DNA from: an uncultured Elusimicrobia bacterium
GTDB taxonomy: Bacteria; Elusimicrobiota; Elusimicrobia; Elusimicrobiales; UBA9959
DNA length: 64,000 nucleotides
Assembly: GCA_903867985.1 (NCBI GenBank)
Contig: CAIPTO010000043.1
Span: forward strand, 1-64,000
Direction: 5' to 3'
Shown: piece by piece, positions 21,470 to 32,474 of the stretch
How the letters are laid out: every line of letters starts with the position of its first letter
Numbering within the stretch: the first letter of the stretch is position 1
Translations under genes and position numbers: made by a program
The notes under the pieces: generated by a model
Told to the model about the DNA's origin: nothing
Seen by the model: only the letters and a program-made list of their open reading frames with translations
The model's database searches: none

Positions 21470-22810
21470 TCACACCAACGCGTACCTCCGGGCATAAATC
21501 GACTGCACCAAACCCAGGGATATCAGGGTAGCCACAAGGTTTGACCCGCCGTATGAAAGCAGCGGCAAAGGCACGCCGGCCACGGGGCTTAACCCCAGGA
21601 GCATACCGGAATTGATAAAAAAGTACACCATAAACATACCGAATATCCCGCAATTGACCAAGTAACCGAAACGGTCCCGCGCCAGATTGGCGCAGGTACG
21701 TATCCTGCTAAGTATGATAACATAAAGACCCATTACCAGCATGGTTCCCCAAAACCCCATCTCCTCTCCCACTACCGCGAGTATGAAGTCTGTGTGCCTC
21801 TCCGGAATAAAACCCAGCCTGGATTGGGTTCCGGAGAAGATGCCTTTGCCAAGCACTCCGCCGGAACCTATGGCAATGCGCGCCTGCAATAAATTATAGC
21901 CGGCCCCCCTCGGATCTGATTCGGGAGACAGAAAAACCTCAAGGCGCTTCTGCTGATACTCCTTCATCTGGTGTTCCACCATCACTCCGGAAAAAAAGCC
22001 GAGGATGAGAACCAGTGCCGCCCCGCCGAAAAATACGCCGGAGATATTGGAATAAAGTTTAACGGAAAGTATCCAGAGAAGATACGCCGCCGCGCCGACG
22101 CCAAACACAAATGTCAGGGAACTCCAGCCGAAATTTGAAAGGTGGAAGAAGTAACTTACCAGCGGGCTGTCCAGCAGTTCCGGATTAAGATTAATGATGG
22201 TCCACAGGATAGGGAAAAGCGCCGAAATAAAGCTGTAACCAAGTATAACGGCAAGGTGGAAAGGATTAGCCCCAGCCGCGAACAACATGATGAGGATTAT
22301 CGGCAGCGTGATCAAAATGGCCGAGAAATCCGGCTGTTTTATCAGCAGCAGGAACACCGGCAGGCTGAGCATCAGCGCGCCGAACACCACCGAGAACTCC
22401 TTGATTTTCCCTATTCGCTTGTCCAGGTAATTAGCGATCACAAGTATCAGGCCGATGCGGGAGAATTCGGAAGGCTGTATGGAAAAAAAAGGCAGGTGGT
22501 ACCAGGACCTGGAACCCTTGTCCACCACTCCGAAAAAGAGCACACCGACGAGCGCCAGGAGCACCGCCCCGTATATGAACTTCCATTGGTCCTGGAATAT
22601 CTGGTAATTAAGGCGCCACACGACCGCGAAAACCGCGAATCCAAGCGGGATAGCGATAAGATGCGTCCTGACTATGCGGATCTGGTTCGGCAGGACGGCT
22701 ACAGAGGAGAATATGGCCAGAGTGCCGATGGTGAGAAGGGCCAGCACCGAGAAAAAAAGCAGCCAGTCCATTCTGTTTTTTTTAATGCCGGAGGTCGCAG
22801 TGGATATCAT
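21470..22810 (-). CDS. rodA: Rod shape-determining protein RodA
   Basis: SEDS family: FIPERHTDFILAVVGEEMGFWG, PLLSYGGSNLV. Confidence 0.94.
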   Translation of the reverse strand: MISTATSGIKKNRMDWLLFFSVLALLTIGTLAIFSSVAVLPNQIRIVRTHLIAIPLGFAVFAVVWRLNYQIFQDQWKFIYGAVLLALVGVLFFGVVDKGSRSWYHLPFFSIQPSEFSRIGLILVIANYLDKRIGKIKEFSVVFGALMLSLPVFLLLIKQPDFSAILITLPIILIMLFAAGANPFHLAVILGYSFISALFPILWTIINLNPELLDSPLVSYFFHLSNFGWSSLTFVFGVGAAAYLLWILSVKLYSNISGVFFGGAALVLILGFFSGVMVEHQMKEYQQKRLEVFLSPESDPRGAGYNLLQARIAIGSGGVLGKGIFSGTQSRLGFIPERHTDFILAVVGEEMGFWGTMLVMGLYVIILSRIRTCANLARDRFGYLVNCGIFGMFMVYFFINSGMLLGLSPVAGVPLPLLSYGGSNLVATLISLGLVQSIYARRYALV

Positions 22811-24621
22811 CTGCCCTCCCCGGCCGAGGTGGAGATTTTTACCGTATCCGGCCCGCCCGACAACCTGTCCCGCAAGGCGGCGAGGATAACTGCCTTCGCT
22901 ATAGGCACCGCCGCCGAGGCCCCGTGCTCCCCGTGCTCGACCAGCACGGCCACGGCAACCTCAGGCTCTTTACCCGGCAGTTGCGCATATGCCACGAACC
23001 AGGCGTGGTCCTTGCCGTGCGGATTCTGAGCCGTGCCGGTCTTGCCGAATATTTCCACCCCGTCTATCCTGACGGTCTGCCCGGTGCCCTCAAGCACGAC
23101 TTCCCTCATGCCTTCTTTTATGAGCGCCCAGGTGCTCTCTTTAAGTTCCACCTGCGAAATTTTTTCCGGCCGGCTTTTGAAAGTTGTTTGCCCCTCAGCA
23201 TCCATCACATAATCCACATAGTACGGCCGCCAGAAAGCTCCGCGACTGGCTACGGCCGAGGCGAGCTGCGCCAGCTGAATAGGGGTGACGAGCGTCTCCC
23301 CCTGTCCGATGCTGAGATTCAGCGTGTCACCTATAAACCAGTAGCTTTTTCTGGCCGCGCGCTTGCTGGGCCCGAATACATTTCCGCTCTTTTCGTCCGG
23401 CAGCGGTATACCTGTGGGCATACCGAGCCTGAACATCCTGGCGTACTTCTCGATATTTAACGGGCCGGTTTTTATGCCCAGGTTGTAATAATACACATCG
23501 CAGGATTTAGCCATGCCGTTCAGAAAATCCACCTTCCCGTGACCTTTCTTGTCCCAGCATTTAAAGACCCGGCTGCCGGCGTCAAAATAGCCGGGGCATA
23601 AAAAAGTCTCAGCCGGATCTATCTTGCCGGAATCCAAGCCTGCTATAGAACTGATGATTTTAAAAATAGAGGCGGGCGGATAGGTGCCCTGCACGGCCAC
23701 GTTGAACTCAGGCAGTTCCTTCAGATTATCAGCAGTCTTCTCCTCGCTGTTGGAAACAAAACGGTTAGGATCATAGTCCGGCATGGAAGCCATGGCAAGC
23801 ACAGCCCCGGATCTGGGGTCTATCGCCACAACAGCGCCTTTCCCGGTGTTGGATTTTTTTAATCCTTCTTCGGCCGCGGACTGGATCTTAGAATCTATGG
23901 TAAGGTAAATATCAGACCCGGGCTGCCATTTGCGGCTTTCCAGTATCCGGTTGAGCTTACCCCTTGAATCCACTTCCAGATAAATACCGCCATCCTTTCC
24001 CTTAAGGTTCCTTTCGTACATTTTCTCCAGCCCCGCCTTGCCCACGCGCGCATCCATGCCATAATTCTTATCCCTCCCGTAGACAGCCCATTCAGCGGCA
24101 TCCATCTTACTGATATAACCGATGACATGACTCAGATAGTTCCCGAAAGGATAATAACGCCGTGCTTCAACTATTATGTCTATGCCGGAATAAATAGTCT
24201 TAAGCTCGGAAAGCGAGAACATGGCCTTTAAGGAAAGGTTCTCGGCCAGGCGCACAGGAGCGCCTCTTTTGACCGCCTTGTAAAGGGCGGCGCTCAGCGC
24301 GTCAAAGGGAATATTGAGCCGCTGAGACAGGCTGCGAGCCATCAGATTGATGTCGTCCACGGATTTCACAGCCCCGGGGAAATAGATAAGACTGAATGAA
24401 GGTTTATTGGTCGCCACGGCGGCCGAATCCCTGGTGTAAATGCGACCGCGGGGAGCCGCCTGAGGCAGGATCTGGGTCTTGTTCCTTTCCGCAATCTCCC
24501 GGTAATGAGCGTGCATAATAATCTGAAGACTGACGAGCCGGAGCACGAAGACCAGACTGACAACCGCGACGAGACCCCACAAGAGGTTCATCCTGTCCTG
24601 CGAGATGCCGCGTTCTATCAT
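22807..24621 (-). CDS. mrdA: Penicillin-binding protein 2
   Basis: YPPASIFKI (SxxK), FGKTGTAQNP. Confidence 0.94.
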   Translation of the reverse strand: MIERGISQDRMNLLWGLVAVVSLVFVLRLVSLQIIMHAHYREIAERNKTQILPQAAPRGRIYTRDSAAVATNKPSFSLIYFPGAVKSVDDINLMARSLSQRLNIPFDALSAALYKAVKRGAPVRLAENLSLKAMFSLSELKTIYSGIDIIVEARRYYPFGNYLSHVIGYISKMDAAEWAVYGRDKNYGMDARVGKAGLEKMYERNLKGKDGGIYLEVDSRGKLNRILESRKWQPGSDIYLTIDSKIQSAAEEGLKKSNTGKGAVVAIDPRSGAVLAMASMPDYDPNRFVSNSEEKTADNLKELPEFNVAVQGTYPPASIFKIISSIAGLDSGKIDPAETFLCPGYFDAGSRVFKCWDKKGHGKVDFLNGMAKSCDVYYYNLGIKTGPLNIEKYARMFRLGMPTGIPLPDEKSGNVFGPSKRAARKSYWFIGDTLNLSIGQGETLVTPIQLAQLASAVASRGAFWRPYYVDYVMDAEGQTTFKSRPEKISQVELKESTWALIKEGMREVVLEGTGQTVRIDGVEIFGKTGTAQNPHGKDHAWFVAYAQLPGKEPEVAVAVLVEHGEHGASAAVPIAKAVILAALRDRLSGGPDTVKISTSAGEGR

Positions 24622-25097
24622 AGTAAATCAAATCTTCTTTTAAGCTGCGCGAAAAAATAAAACACAATAGGCGCCAGGAGCGCGTTGAGAAATGGCTCTA
24701 CCAGAAACGCCTTCAATTGCAACGGATTAATCTTAGCGAGCGCGAGTGACAACCCCTGATAGCACAACATGGATATCATAGTAAGCGTAAACGCCGCTAT
24801 AACCTGAGAAAAAGGGCTGACCAGATCCAGATGGCGCTTCATAATATAAATGCCGTAAGCCATGAGCGTGTAGGTTAGCGCGTAAGCCCCAAAAAGATTA
24901 GAGCCAAGCATGTCCAGATAGATCCCGAAGAAAAAACCGTAGACCAGCGCTTTGGCTGGACGCGCAATTATCGCGGCCGCCAACGCCGCCACAAAAATAA
25001 TATTGGGCGCCACTCCAAAAATGGAGAGGTTGGTTGTCCACCACCAGTAAATAACTCCGGTAAGGAGATATATCAGGATATCGCCCATTAATCTCAT
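24618..25097 (-). CDS. mreD: Rod shape-determining protein MreD
   Basis: Small polytopic protein between mreC and mrdA. Confidence 0.85.
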   Translation of the reverse strand: MRLMGDILIYLLTGVIYWWWTTNLSIFGVAPNIIFVAALAAAIIARPAKALVYGFFFGIYLDMLGSNLFGAYALTYTLMAYGIYIMKRHLDLVSPFSQVIAAFTLTMISMLCYQGLSLALAKINPLQLKAFLVEPFLNALLAPIVFYFFAQLKRRFDLL

Positions 25098-25954
25098 TTT
25101 TTCAAAGTCTCCTGGATAACGGCAAGGTCAGTCGGGAAGTCTCGTTTTACCACATAAACTTCCTTAAGCGCGTTAATAGTTATAACCGGCGCGACATCCG
25201 CGGTTATAAAATTCATAAAAGATTCCTTGGGATGAACTTTCTGCACCCGGCCCACCGGCAGGCCCTGCGGAAACAACAGTCCGCCCGGAGAAGTCACAAA
25301 TTCCGCGCCTTCGGTGATATCAGAGCCCTCCGGGATATAGTTCATCCTTAGAAGCCATGTGCCCCGCCCCTCAGCCAGACCTTCGAAACTGGCTCCTGGC
25401 AGCGAGCAGATCAGCGAAGAAACGCTATTGGTTATCAGCAGCACTTTGGAAAAATCCTGATATATCTCAAAGACGCGCCCGGCCAGACCGACACGGCCGT
25501 TCTCAAACCCGACTACGGTTGAGTTAAGAGCGATACCGTCTTTGGCGCCCTTATTTATGAAGAAAGCTCCGTACCAGTCCTGCGGATTCTTATTAATGAC
25601 TCTGGCCCATACGCCTTTAAGGGCGATGCTGCGCGAAAGCCCCATCTCAGAGGTCAGGCGCCGGTTCTCCTCATCTGCGGCTTCAGCCGCCTTGATGGAG
25701 ACTTCCAACTCTTTGATCCTGCCGGTCAGAGCCCTGTTTTCCTGGTCGGTCTTGAGAATGTTAAGAAAATTATCCGGCACATTACGGATAAAATAATCGT
25801 ATTTTGCTCCGTAGTGAAGCGACGGGTAAAGGCTGTAACTGAAGAATATGCGGGCGGTCTGGGCTATACGGGCGGAAGGGAAAAGGAGGAGAAGCGTGGA
25901 AATAAAGATGAAAAAGACAGCAGTATAATTTGCTATATCTTTTTCCCTGTTCAT
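25094..25954 (-). CDS. mreC: Rod shape-determining protein MreC
   Basis: Single TM, coiled coil, VWARVINKNPQDWYGAFFINKGAKDGI. Confidence 0.92.
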   Translation of the reverse strand: MNREKDIANYTAVFFIFISTLLLLFPSARIAQTARIFFSYSLYPSLHYGAKYDYFIRNVPDNFLNILKTDQENRALTGRIKELEVSIKAAEAADEENRRLTSEMGLSRSIALKGVWARVINKNPQDWYGAFFINKGAKDGIALNSTVVGFENGRVGLAGRVFEIYQDFSKVLLITNSVSSLICSLPGASFEGLAEGRGTWLLRMNYIPEGSDITEGAEFVTSPGGLLFPQGLPVGRVQKVHPKESFMNFITADVAPVITINALKEVYVVKRDFPTDLAVIQETLKK

Positions 25955-26158
25955 AAATCGCCCCTCCAGCCTATGGCCGCGCCGTTTCTAACATCTGGTT
26001 GTGCCGCACAAGCGCTATACGCTTCAGACGGCTAAGGGCAATACCTATTGCCAAGACGGCCTGAATGGGAGACTCGATTTTTTTCGGGAACTTAAAAGCG
26101 CTGAGCCGGGAAACGACCGGCAGGGCAAAGCTGCGTGATAAAGAATTCAGCGTTCCAG

Positions 26159-27229
<1,071 letters not shown>

Positions 27230-27312
27230 CTAGCGGATAATACCCGGCAGACGGCGCCGAATAAACAAATTTACCCCTTTCAATATTACGATCACCCGCC
27301 GCTTCACTGTCT

Positions 27313-27657
27313 TTAATCTACCAGTTTAATCAAGGCCACTTCGGTGGCGTCGCCTTTGCGGCTTCCGAGCAACAGTATCCGGGTGCAGCCGCCTTTGCGA
27401 TCCTTGTACCTGGGGGCGATCACGTCGAACACTTTGTGATATACGTCCTTGCTCTTTATGATCTTCCTGACCGAAAGCCTGCGTCCCAACTTGGCGTCGT
27501 TAATTACACCCTCCACCACGCGACGAAGTTCTTTGGCCTTAGGCACGGTGGTCTTGATCTTTTCGTGCAGGAGAAGACTGGTCGCCATGTTGGAGAACAT
27601 GGCGCGCCTGTGCGAGCCTGTCTTTGAAAGTTTTCTGTGTCCGAGATTTTTTATCAT
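27313..27657 (-). CDS. rplQ: 50S ribosomal protein L17
   Basis: RKLSKTGSHRRAMFSNMATSLL. Confidence 0.96.
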   Translation of the reverse strand: MIKNLGHRKLSKTGSHRRAMFSNMATSLLLHEKIKTTVPKAKELRRVVEGVINDAKLGRRLSVRKIIKSKDVYHKVFDVIAPRYKDRKGGCTRILLLGSRKGDATEVALIKLVD

Positions 27658-27675
27658 AAACGGTCCTTTTGGAGG

Positions 27676-28656
27676 TTACGCAACCTTCATACCGAGTTCG
27701 AGTCCCATTTCCTTGAGCTTATCCTTGATCTCGTCCAGAGATTTCTTGCCGAAATTCTTGACGGCCAGCAGGTCTTCCTCGGTCTTGCCTACCAGTTCAC
27801 CGATGGTGCGGATACCCGCGACTTTAAGGCAGTTTGAAGCCCGGGAGGAGAGCTCTATCATCTCCACGCCCTGATCGAGCGTACCCTTAAGCTCCACACC
27901 CTTCTCTCCGGAGTCGGCGGCGCCAACAGCCTTGGCAGGCTCGGCGGCAGCTTCAGCTTCCGGCAGGAACGGAATAATCGAGCGGCGCAAAAGCGACGCG
28001 GTCTTGTTAACGGCGGCCTCGGGGCTGATACTGCCGTCAGTCCATATCTCAAGGACCAGCCTGTCGTAGTCTGTCCGCTGGCCCACGCGGGCGTTCTCGA
28101 CATTATAATGCACCTTCTGTATCGGGGAGAAGAGCGCGTCCATAGGTATAAAATCAGCGGGGAGATTCATCCGCGCCCTGATTTCTTCCGAGGTCAGGTA
28201 GCCGGCGCCGCTGGCAACTTCCAGTTCCACTTCAAAAACCGCGCCGGATTCAACATGGGCTATGACCAGTTCCTTGTTAATAATTTCGACATTGGCGTTC
28301 TCGCGGATATCGGAGCCCTTTACTTCTTTTTTGCCGTGCACGGACAGCAGAAGGGTCTCCGGACCCTCGCCGGTGAGCCGCACGCGCAGTTTCTTAAGAT
28401 TCAGCAGAATGTTAATGACATCTTCCTGAACCCCGTTGATGGTGGCATATTCATGTCTGGCGCCTTTGATCCTGACCGCCACGACAGCCGAACCGTCCAG
28501 GCTGGAGAGCAGAATACGGCGCAGCGAATTGCCGATGGTATGGCCATAGCCTCTCTCATAGGGCTCGGCGGTAAACTTGGCGTAGTTACCGGTTTTTGTT
28601 TTTTCCTCGACATTAATCGCTTCGGGGATAATAAGCTGTTTTTAAAAGGTAAACAT
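27676..28656 (-). CDS. rpoA: DNA-directed RNA polymerase subunit alpha, with an in-frame TAA at codon 5 of the apparent reading frame
   Basis: Homology-like reading extends upstream of the ORF-track start: KQLIIPEAINVEEKTKTGNYAKFTAEPYERGYGHTIGNSLRRILLSSLDGSAVVAVRIKG; ATG at 28656 preceded by AGGAGG. Confidence 0.85.
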
Positions 28657-28674
28657 TTATTGACGGCCTCCTGA

Positions 28675-29319
28675 TTACTTGGAATAAAACTCTACTATAA
28701 GCTGTTCATCGACATTTATAGAAACTTCTCCGCGGTCGGGCCAGCGGACCATTTTGCCAGTCATAGTGGCGGTATCATATGACAGGAAGCTGGGCCTGGG
28801 CGCCGATTTTTCCGCATTCTCAAGCCCCTGCTTAACTGCGGGGGTCTGCGCGGTCTTCGGGTCGATAGTCACCGTGTCTCCGGGCTTAACAAGGAAGGAC
28901 GGGATGTCCGTCTGACGGCCGTTAACGCGAATGTGGCCGTGGTTTACGAGCTGCCTGGAGGTCTTCATGGAGACCGCGAAACCCAGGCGCCGCACAATAT
29001 TATCAAGCCTGACTTCAAGGAAGCGCAACAACGCCTCTCCGGTCTTGCCTTTGTCCTTGGAGGCTTTGTCGAAAAAACGCCTGAACTGCGTTTCAGTGAT
29101 CTGCGCCATGAGACGCGCGATCTGCTTCTCGCGCAGATGTTTGCCGTAGTCGGACATTTTTTTCATACCGCCGGGCCCCCCGGACGAGAATTTCTTATCG
29201 CGACTGGATTTGGCCTTCTTATCCACGATGCAATTGGTGGAGCATTTGCTGCCTTTGAGGAACAGCTTCTGGCTTACTTTTCTGCATTTTTTGCAGCTGG
29301 GTCCTGTATATCTAGACAT
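28675..29319 (-). CDS. rpsD: 30S ribosomal protein S4
   Basis: RLDNIVRRLGFA, HGHIRVNGRQTDIPSF; N-terminal Cys motif. Confidence 0.96.
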   Translation of the reverse strand: MSRYTGPSCKKCRKVSQKLFLKGSKCSTNCIVDKKAKSSRDKKFSSGGPGGMKKMSDYGKHLREKQIARLMAQITETQFRRFFDKASKDKGKTGEALLRFLEVRLDNIVRRLGFAVSMKTSRQLVNHGHIRVNGRQTDIPSFLVKPGDTVTIDPKTAQTPAVKQGLENAEKSAPRPSFLSYDTATMTGKMVRWPDRGEVSINVDEQLIVEFYSK

Positions 29320-29343
29320 TAAACTTTTATCCTCCGTGGTAAA

Positions 29344-29781
29344 TTAGACTCTTCTGGGTTTGGGCGGCCTGCAGCCGTTGTGCGGAATAGGCGTGGTGTC
29401 CTTTATGGAGATCACGTGTATACCGCTCGCAGCTATCGCCCTGATCGCTGTTTCTCTTCCGGGTCCGGGGCCTGTGACGAGCACCACTGCCTGCTTGACG
29501 CCGTATTCCATCGCCCTGCCGCAGGCTTTGGAAGAAGTTATCTGCGCCGCGAACGGCGTTCCTTTCTTAGTGCCTCTGAAGCCGTTGGCGCCCGATGTTG
29601 ACCAAGCCAGAACATTTCCCTTTTCATCGGTAACGGTGACTATGGTATTGTTAAAAGAGCAGTTGATGTACACCTTGGCGAAAGTCACGGTGCCATGATA
29701 CCGCCTCTTGGCCTGAGGCTTATGCTCGGTCTTCTTATATCCGTCCACGGCTGGCTGTTGCTGTTTCTTCTCTTCAGTCAT
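29344..29781 (-). CDS. rpsK: 30S ribosomal protein S11
   Basis: [22 protein letters not shown]. Confidence 0.97.
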
Positions 29782-29802
29782 GATAAATTCCGATCCTCCT
29801 GA

Positions 29803-30201
29803 TTATTTAGCCGCGGGTTTAACCGGAGCTTTAGCCGCTGAACCGACGGTCTTCCTTCTGCCGCGGCGGGTGCGGGCGTTGGTTTTAGTTCTCTGGCCAC
29901 GCGCGGGAAGCATGCGTCTGTGTCTCATGCCTCTGTAGCTGCCGATCTCTATATGTCTTTTCATGTGAGCGGTGATCTCCCTGCGGAGCTCGCCTTCCAC
30001 CTTGTATTCCTTGGAAATGATAGAGTTCAGAAGACCGACCTGGTCTTCGGTCATATCTTTAACCCTGGTAGTGGGGTTAATCTGATTTTTCAGACCGCCT
30101 AAAATCTTAAGCGCCAGCGGACGCCCTATGCCGAAAACATAAGCGAGCGCAACGTCTATCCGTTTTTCTCTAGGTAAGTCCACACCTGCGATTCTTGCCA
30201 T
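29803..30201 (-). CDS. rpsM: 30S ribosomal protein S13
   Basis: [26 protein letters not shown]. Confidence 0.97.
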
Positions 30202-30328
30202 AATAAAAAAGTGGTCAGTGGGCAGTGGGCAGTGATAAGCGCGGAAACCGCATTCATCATAAATCCCTCCTTAACCAAGCACTTCCTCCTCTCTGTTTAT
30301 ATTTTAAAAAGACACCGACCACCGCTTG

Positions 30329-30442
30329 CTATCCCTGCCGCTGTTTGTGGCGGGGGTCTTCACAAATAACCCTGACAACGCCTTTGCGTTTCACGATCTT
30401 GCACTTAATGCAAATTTTCTTCACGCTGGCTCTTACTTTCAT
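30329..30442 (-). CDS. rpmJ: 50S ribosomal protein L36 (37 aa: [37 protein letters not shown])
   Basis: Translated by hand from the gap between rpsM and infA; below the ORF-track size cutoff. Confidence 0.95.
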
Positions 30443-30562
30443 TTTACTTGCTCCTTCTTTGTCGCACCCCGCGCTCAACACACTCGCGGGGCGGATTACC
30501 CGCCGGACCTCTAAAGTTATCTTTGATCATCCGGATAAACCACGGATGTTTTAGCGCAGTTG

Positions 30563-30784
30563 TTATTTCTCCCTGTAAACTATTCTGCCTTTTGACAGAT
30601 CATAGGGAGAAAGCTCCATTTTAACCTTGTCGCCGGGAAGTATCTTTATATGGTTGATGCGCATCTTGCCGGAAATAATCCCGAAGATTATTTTCCCGGG
30701 CGCTATTTCAACCCTGAAAGTCGCATTCGGAAGGGCCTCTTTTATGACCCCGTCTACTTCTATTTTTTCGCTGTTTTCTGACAT
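30563..30784 (-). CDS. infA: Translation initiation factor IF-1
   Basis: [33 protein letters not shown]. Confidence 0.96.
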
Positions 30785-30872
30785 ATTTATATATTATACT
30801 AAAATAACACCCGATTATTTATCCATAAAAAAGGGAATAGCCTCTCACGGCTTACACTTTCCGTTTCACGAC

Positions 30873-31062
30873 ACTAACCTGAAAGTTGCAGTTGCAACTT
30901 TCCGCCTGCACAGCAGACGCCCATTCGGGAGGTATACACCTTCTCGGACACATCGCGCATAGCGCTTGTTCCTCGACCCGCTGCTGCGGGGAATCCTGCA
31001 GAATAATTCTTTTCCCTGATTTTATCAAGGAGATATACCTTGAACTGCAGAATTCAGGCTAA
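30873..31062 (-). repeat. MITE-like dispersed repeat, copy 1
   Basis: ~190 bp, clearly alignable to 61448-61634; terminal TTAGCCTGAA/CTAACCTGAA inverted repeats; internal hairpins. Confidence 0.8.
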
Positions 31063-31808
31063 ACCACACTGAGTATTTCGCACCCATTTTCAGTTACGGC
31101 CACCGTGTGCTCAAAATGCGCGGTGCAGCTTCCGTCAGCCGAGACGGCGGTCCAGCCGTCGTTTTTGATGATGATCTCCGGCTTGCCCAGGCAAACCATG
31201 GGTTCTATCGCGAGAGTCATGCCGGCCTTAAGCGTAACCCCTGAACCGGGTTTCCCGTAGTTCGGAATCGACGGCTCCTCGTGAAGGCGGCGGCCTATAC
31301 CATGGCCGGTAAACTCTCTCACCACGGACATACCGTTCTCAATAACAAAACTTTCCACCGCGTGGGACACATCACCGAGTTTTGCCCCGCTCCTGACTTC
31401 GGACAGTGCCCTGGCGAGCGAGGCTTCCGTAACAGCCATAAGGCGCCGCATTTCCGGCTTTACGGCCCCGACTGCCACGGTAACGGCGGCATCTCCGTAA
31501 AAGCCGCGGTAGACAGCGCCAAGGTCCATGCTGACCAAGTCGCCGCTCCGTATGATCCGCTTATCACTCGGGATTCCGTGGACAACTTCCTCGTTTATTG
31601 AAACGCAAAGAGCAGCGGGGTAACCACGATAACCGAGAAAGGCGGGGACTGCTTCGCGGTTCCTGATTTCCAGTTCCGCAAATTTATTCAGTTCGGCGGT
31701 GGAAACTCCGGCACAAATCTTTTTTTTCAGGAGGGCCAGCACCTGGGCCACTATTTTGGAGGACTGCCTCATCAGCTCAAGTTCAGCCGCCGTCTTTATT
31801 TCAACCAT
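31059..31808 (-). CDS. map: Methionine aminopeptidase
   Basis: GHGIGRRLHEEPSIPNYG, VSMDLGAVYRGFYGDAAVT. Confidence 0.96.
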   Translation of the reverse strand: MVEIKTAAELELMRQSSKIVAQVLALLKKKICAGVSTAELNKFAELEIRNREAVPAFLGYRGYPAALCVSINEEVVHGIPSDKRIIRSGDLVSMDLGAVYRGFYGDAAVTVAVGAVKPEMRRLMAVTEASLARALSEVRSGAKLGDVSHAVESFVIENGMSVVREFTGHGIGRRLHEEPSIPNYGKPGSGVTLKAGMTLAIEPMVCLGKPEIIIKNDGWTAVSADGSCTAHFEHTVAVTENGCEILSVV

Positions 31809-31826
31809 TAAATTGTGCCCGCGCCG

Positions 31827-32474
31827 TCAGACGTTCTTTATTTTCAGAACTGCCGCGATTTCCTGAGTCACAGACTCTGGATCTTTGCCGCCTTTAACCA
31901 TGCAGAAATTGCCCATTCCCTTATAATACGCAACCAGCGGTTCCGTCTGGTCTTTGTAAACTAAAATCCGGCGCCGTATCACTTCAGGCTTATCATCTTC
32001 GCGCAGGATAAGTTTTTCGCCGCAGGCATCGCATAGTCCCTCTTTGACCGGCGGAGAAGTAAGCAGGTTGTATATCTTCTGGCACTTCGGACAAGTGCGC
32101 CTTGATCCGAGCCTGGCAACTACAGCCTCTTCATCCACGTCAAGGAAGATTACGGCGTCTATACCCTGAGATCTGGAGGCGAAATAATCATCCAGTTCGC
32201 GGGCCTGGTCCACTGTTCTGGGAAAGCCATCGAACAATAATCCCCTGGTCTCCGTGGCAAGCCTGGTCTTTATAACGTCAAGAACCAGCTTATCCGGCAC
32301 AAGCCTGCCTGCGGAGAGATATCCCGAAACTTCCTGCCCAAGCGCGGTCTTAGCTGAAATAGCTTCCCGAAAGATGTCTCCCGTTGATATGTGAAAAAGA
32401 GAGAATTTTTCGCTTAAAACGCTGGCCTGAGTGCCCTTGCCCGAACCCGGGTAACCCAAAAGAATGAGATTCAT
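31827..32474 (-). CDS. adk: Adenylate kinase
   Basis: LLGYPGSGKGTQA, FDGFPRTVDQA, Cys4 lid. Confidence 0.97.
   Translation of the reverse strand: MNLILLGYPGSGKGTQASVLSEKFSLFHISTGDIFREAISAKTALGQEVSGYLSAGRLVPDKLVLDVIKTRLATETRGLLFDGFPRTVDQARELDDYFASRSQGIDAVIFLDVDEEAVVARLGSRRTCPKCQKIYNLLTSPPVKEGLCDACGEKLILREDDKPEVIRRRILVYKDQTEPLVAYYKGMGNFCMVKGGKDPESVTQEIAAVLKIKNV

Follow-up and report, generated by a model that had tools for sequence, protein, structure and literature searches.

The rpoA gene of the DNA analyzed here, a window of 64,000 nucleotides from a metagenome-derived Elusimicrobia genome that is ~92% complete, is interrupted at codon 5 by an in-frame TAA. We attribute this stop, with a probability of about 0.7, to a one-base nonsense change private to this genome among the genomes compared, which would stem either from an error of consensus or assembly or from a nonsense allele that is recent or confined to a minority. 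The stop is read as a defect of the assembled sequence and gives no ground for assigning the gene to a family other than RpoA. Most likely it reflects a mistaken consensus base or a stray strain variant, and not a novel mode of translation initiation. The probability given here, the smaller weight placed on re-initiation after a fixed stop, and the remainder left for readthrough and other routes are judgements and not computed values.

On the minus strand, the rpoA frame begins with ATG, TTT, ACC and TTT, meets the TAA, and continues with AAA, CAG, CTT, ATT, ATC, CCC and GAA (Table 1). Past codon 5, the frame is open until the TAA ending at 27676, and the 321 residues encoded in this interval match Pfam RNA_pol_L, RNA_pol_A_bac and RNA_pol_A_CTD in one chain, all above gathering scores. 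No in-frame ATG, GTG or TTG occurs between the codon 5 TAA and the GTG of codon 59. The initial annotation had described this arrangement, from the AGGAGG ten bases ahead of the ATG to the internal stop and the distant GTG, and all of its coordinates hold. An uninterrupted ORF running from the start led by the Shine-Dalgarno (SD) sequence is thus absent from the assembled rpoA owing to the TAA, and present in relatives. Rpo​A is encoded by a single gene copy, and a second, intact rpoA was not found elsewhere in the genome. When viral contigs were probed with the 32 bases that lie shortly after the TAA, no match was found. The surrounding region of the window (22807-32474, minus strand) reads adk, map, infA, rpsM, rpsK, rpsD, rpoA and rplQ, then mreB, mreC, mreD and a penicillin-binding protein 2-like gene, so named from their translations without a family search; the ribosomal alpha operon here adjoins a cell-shape cluster.

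Table 1. Features of the rpoA start region and their positions in the window.
Feature	Coordinates	Strand	Basis
rpoA (RNA polymerase alpha subunit gene), interrupted by one TAA	27676..28656	-	sequence, Pfam, relatives
Shine-Dalgarno AGGAGG, spacing of 10 to the ATG, retained in same-genus relatives	28667..28672	-	sequence and relatives
ATG, matching the position of the relatives' rpoA start codon	28654..28656	-	sequence and relatives
Codons 2-4 (TTT ACC TTT); codon 2 is Phe, against Ser/Ala/Pro/Gln in 28 relatives	28645..28653	-	
TAA, codon 5; a single C-to-A substitution away from the TCA (Ser) that all same-genus relatives carry	28642..28644	-	
ATT (28632) and ATC (28629), codons 9 and 10, proposed near-cognate starts; no SD at the usual spacing	28627..28632	-	
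GTG (28482), codon 59, first canonical start codon past the TAA; a start here trims the N-terminal part of the dimerisation domain	28480..28482	-	

The nearest genomes, Elusimicrobia GWA2_56_46, RIFOXYA12_FULL_51_18 and RA.bin131, belong to the same genus, with RpoA proteins 90-94% identical to that of the window. In all three, an SD sequence and an ATG stand at the matching place, followed by MSSFSKQLIIPEAIN. The SD sequence and the position of the ATG are therefore as in the window, whereas codon 5 is TCA (Ser) and codon 2 encodes Ser in these relatives, against TAA and Phe in the window. A single C-to-A change, TCA to TAA, separates the window from its genus at codon 5. In the more distant relatives of the family, too, wherever the start was read, an SD precedes the ATG and codon 5 is a sense codon, usually for Ser or Thr. 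Among the 28 distinct loci that follow the common pattern, TCA occupies codon 5 in 19, ACT in five, TCC in two and TCT in two, and a stop in none. When 299 genomes of the phylum were searched, the window genome was the only one flagged with an internal stop among the rpoA matches listed, a listing of which only part tests codon 5, as many distant alignments begin past it. Relatives with an intact ATG in this position had been named in the initial annotation as the observation that would speak against anything unusual, and they are what the comparison returned; with their sense codon 5, they support the assembly or strain error that it had listed among its explanations. In G213, a genome of the same family, rpoA appears as three separate matches, the best of them with an E-value much weaker than those of its genus mates, perhaps reflecting a split or fragmented gene.

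The reading frame past the stop is well preserved. Between the window and relative G001, codons 6-58 differ by 18 synonymous and two nonsynonymous codon changes, and codons 6-13, right behind the stop, show no difference. The scarcity of nonsynonymous differences indicates that the protein encoded past the TAA, including the part that precedes the GTG of codon 59, is under strong purifying selection. The level of DNA identity to G001 stays uniform on both sides of codon 5; a chimeric contig join at this point was rejected on that basis, the contig also being free of N. A +1 slip on the TTT-T before the TAA was rejected as well: the shifted frame is open to 28401 but encodes a sequence unlike alpha, and a second, compensating shift would be needed.

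The nonsense rate was taken from ~410 kb of the genome, made up of the rpoA contig together with other contigs totalling about 330 kb. When 169 non-overlapping ortholog pairs with a same-genus genome were aligned (54,295 residues), a credible internal stop appeared only at rpoA codon 5, and none of the pairs has a gene split by a frameshift. Together with the listing from the phylum, this sets the stop apart as more than chance. Other flagged stops were discounted, as judged by position, identity and aligned residues; they lay at a C-terminal end, within a shadow ORF on the antisense strand, or in a non-homologous N-terminus where the relative's ORF is over-extended. Since only one credible internal stop occurs in 169 genes, TAA is not tolerated in general. 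The same cleanness counts against an error at codon 5: in an assembly with no frameshift or other nonsense in the 169 genes, a random error must have fallen in rpoA.

The stop could instead be real and fixed. The MFTF mini-ORF would then terminate at the TAA and ribosomes would re-initiate at the AUU of codon 9 or the AUC of codon 10, yielding an alpha subunit without its ~eight N-terminal residues. Bacterial non-AUG starts do exist, for example in S. aureus infC and cvfC1 (PMC13009471), and nonsynonymous changes with respect to G001 cluster in codons 2-5 (S2F, S3T and S5*, three differences against 2/53 in codons 6-58), while codons 6-13 are identical. Phe at codon 2 is found in 0/28 relatives. 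Such a cluster would be compatible with constraint being relaxed over the first five codons, and may hint at a real, older change. The hint is weak, because other members of the family often have Thr at codon 3 and conservation of the earliest residues is loose. Against re-initiation, the AGGAGG lies 34 bases before the AUU, with no nearer SD, and both proposed codons are plain internal Ile codons in close relatives, which start at an ATG in the position of that of the window. Nor has a one-step change to AUG been selected: codons 9, 10 and 14 (ATT, ATC and ATT) are each one base from ATG and none has changed, although a population carrying this stop for long would be expected to gain an ATG at one of them. 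Near-cognate initiation is, moreover, normally weak, and the alpha subunit is required in high amount. The non-AUG start advanced in the initial annotation is left without positive support, and we regard a fixed stop with re-initiation as unlikely; its more elaborate form, in which a TAA fixed in the species would couple alpha synthesis to initiation-factor activity through termination of MFTF and re-initiation at AUU or AUC, is more doubtful still. A start at the GTG of codon 59, the first canonical in-frame start codon after the TAA, would produce a short alpha and is extremely improbable. It would cost the Pfam dimerisation domain its first ~29 positions, lowering the RNA_pol_L score from 80.6 to 38.9 bits, and the part removed is under purifying selection. 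The lost part also includes a segment that aligns with E. coli residues 35-50, a match made by eye on the common ERGxGHTxGN motif; in E. coli alpha, the F35A and I46S substitutions prevent dimer formation (PMC3294249).

Alternatively, a real TAA could be decoded, by readthrough or by an ochre-suppressor tRNA, to give full-length alpha. TCA and TAA are one step apart, and one step could likewise turn a tRNA-Ser(UGA) into an ochre suppressor. The tRNA search, however, recovered 34 tRNA genes, whose anticodons all read sense codons and include an ordinary tRNA-Ser(tga); no suppressor or stop-reading tRNA is among them in this genome of about 92% completeness. Given that completeness some tRNA may be missing, so that a suppressor outside the assembly is possible, but unsupported. 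Elsewhere in the sampled genome there is no readthrough of TAA, no other conserved gene among the 169 has a credible internal stop, and rpoA itself and rpsD terminate in TAA. Stop readthrough, also raised in the initial annotation, accordingly finds no backing here, and we consider it very unlikely. Reassignment of TAA was rejected too: in-frame TAA does not recur at conserved positions of many genes, the ortholog pairs holding no other credible case.

An erroneous base or a transient variant at codon 5 thus remains the most likely explanation. The gene would be an ordinary rpoA whose assembled sequence bears a single C-to-A nonsense change; the consensus may be wrong at that base, or the base may record a recent or minority nonsense allele of the sampled population. 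For the living majority, translation would proceed from the ATG at 28656 behind the AGGAGG, with a sense codon at position 5. If the stop were real, this would be one of the rare instances in which an essential housekeeping gene lacks a canonical start and its leader carries a translated mini-ORF. For now, the case serves chiefly as a warning that a single wrong or minority base in a draft genome can lead a gene caller to shift the start of an essential gene 58 codons downstream. A literature search for internal stops caused by assembly errors in metagenome-assembled genomes found no paper.

Two kinds of known case bear comparison. Ribosome profiling in S. aureus revealed starts at the AUA of infC and the AUU of cvfC1 (PMC13009471), and the infC (AUU/AUA) and cvfC1 (AUU) starts resemble the proposed re-initiation in rpoA in their use of a near-cognate codon as start. 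The S. aureus AUU and AUA starts are, however, directed by a strong, extended SD that is suitably spaced from them, and the AUU start of cvfC1 is conserved among staphylococci, across the genus (PMC13009471); neither holds for the rpoA of the window, where the near-cognate codons have no SD at normal spacing before them and the relatives do not share a non-AUG start. In form, the rpoA stop resembles the isolated nonsense variants or errors of draft metagenome-assembled genomes, being a single substitution in one genome and in a gene that is otherwise clean; it differs from them in striking an essential gene, close to its start.
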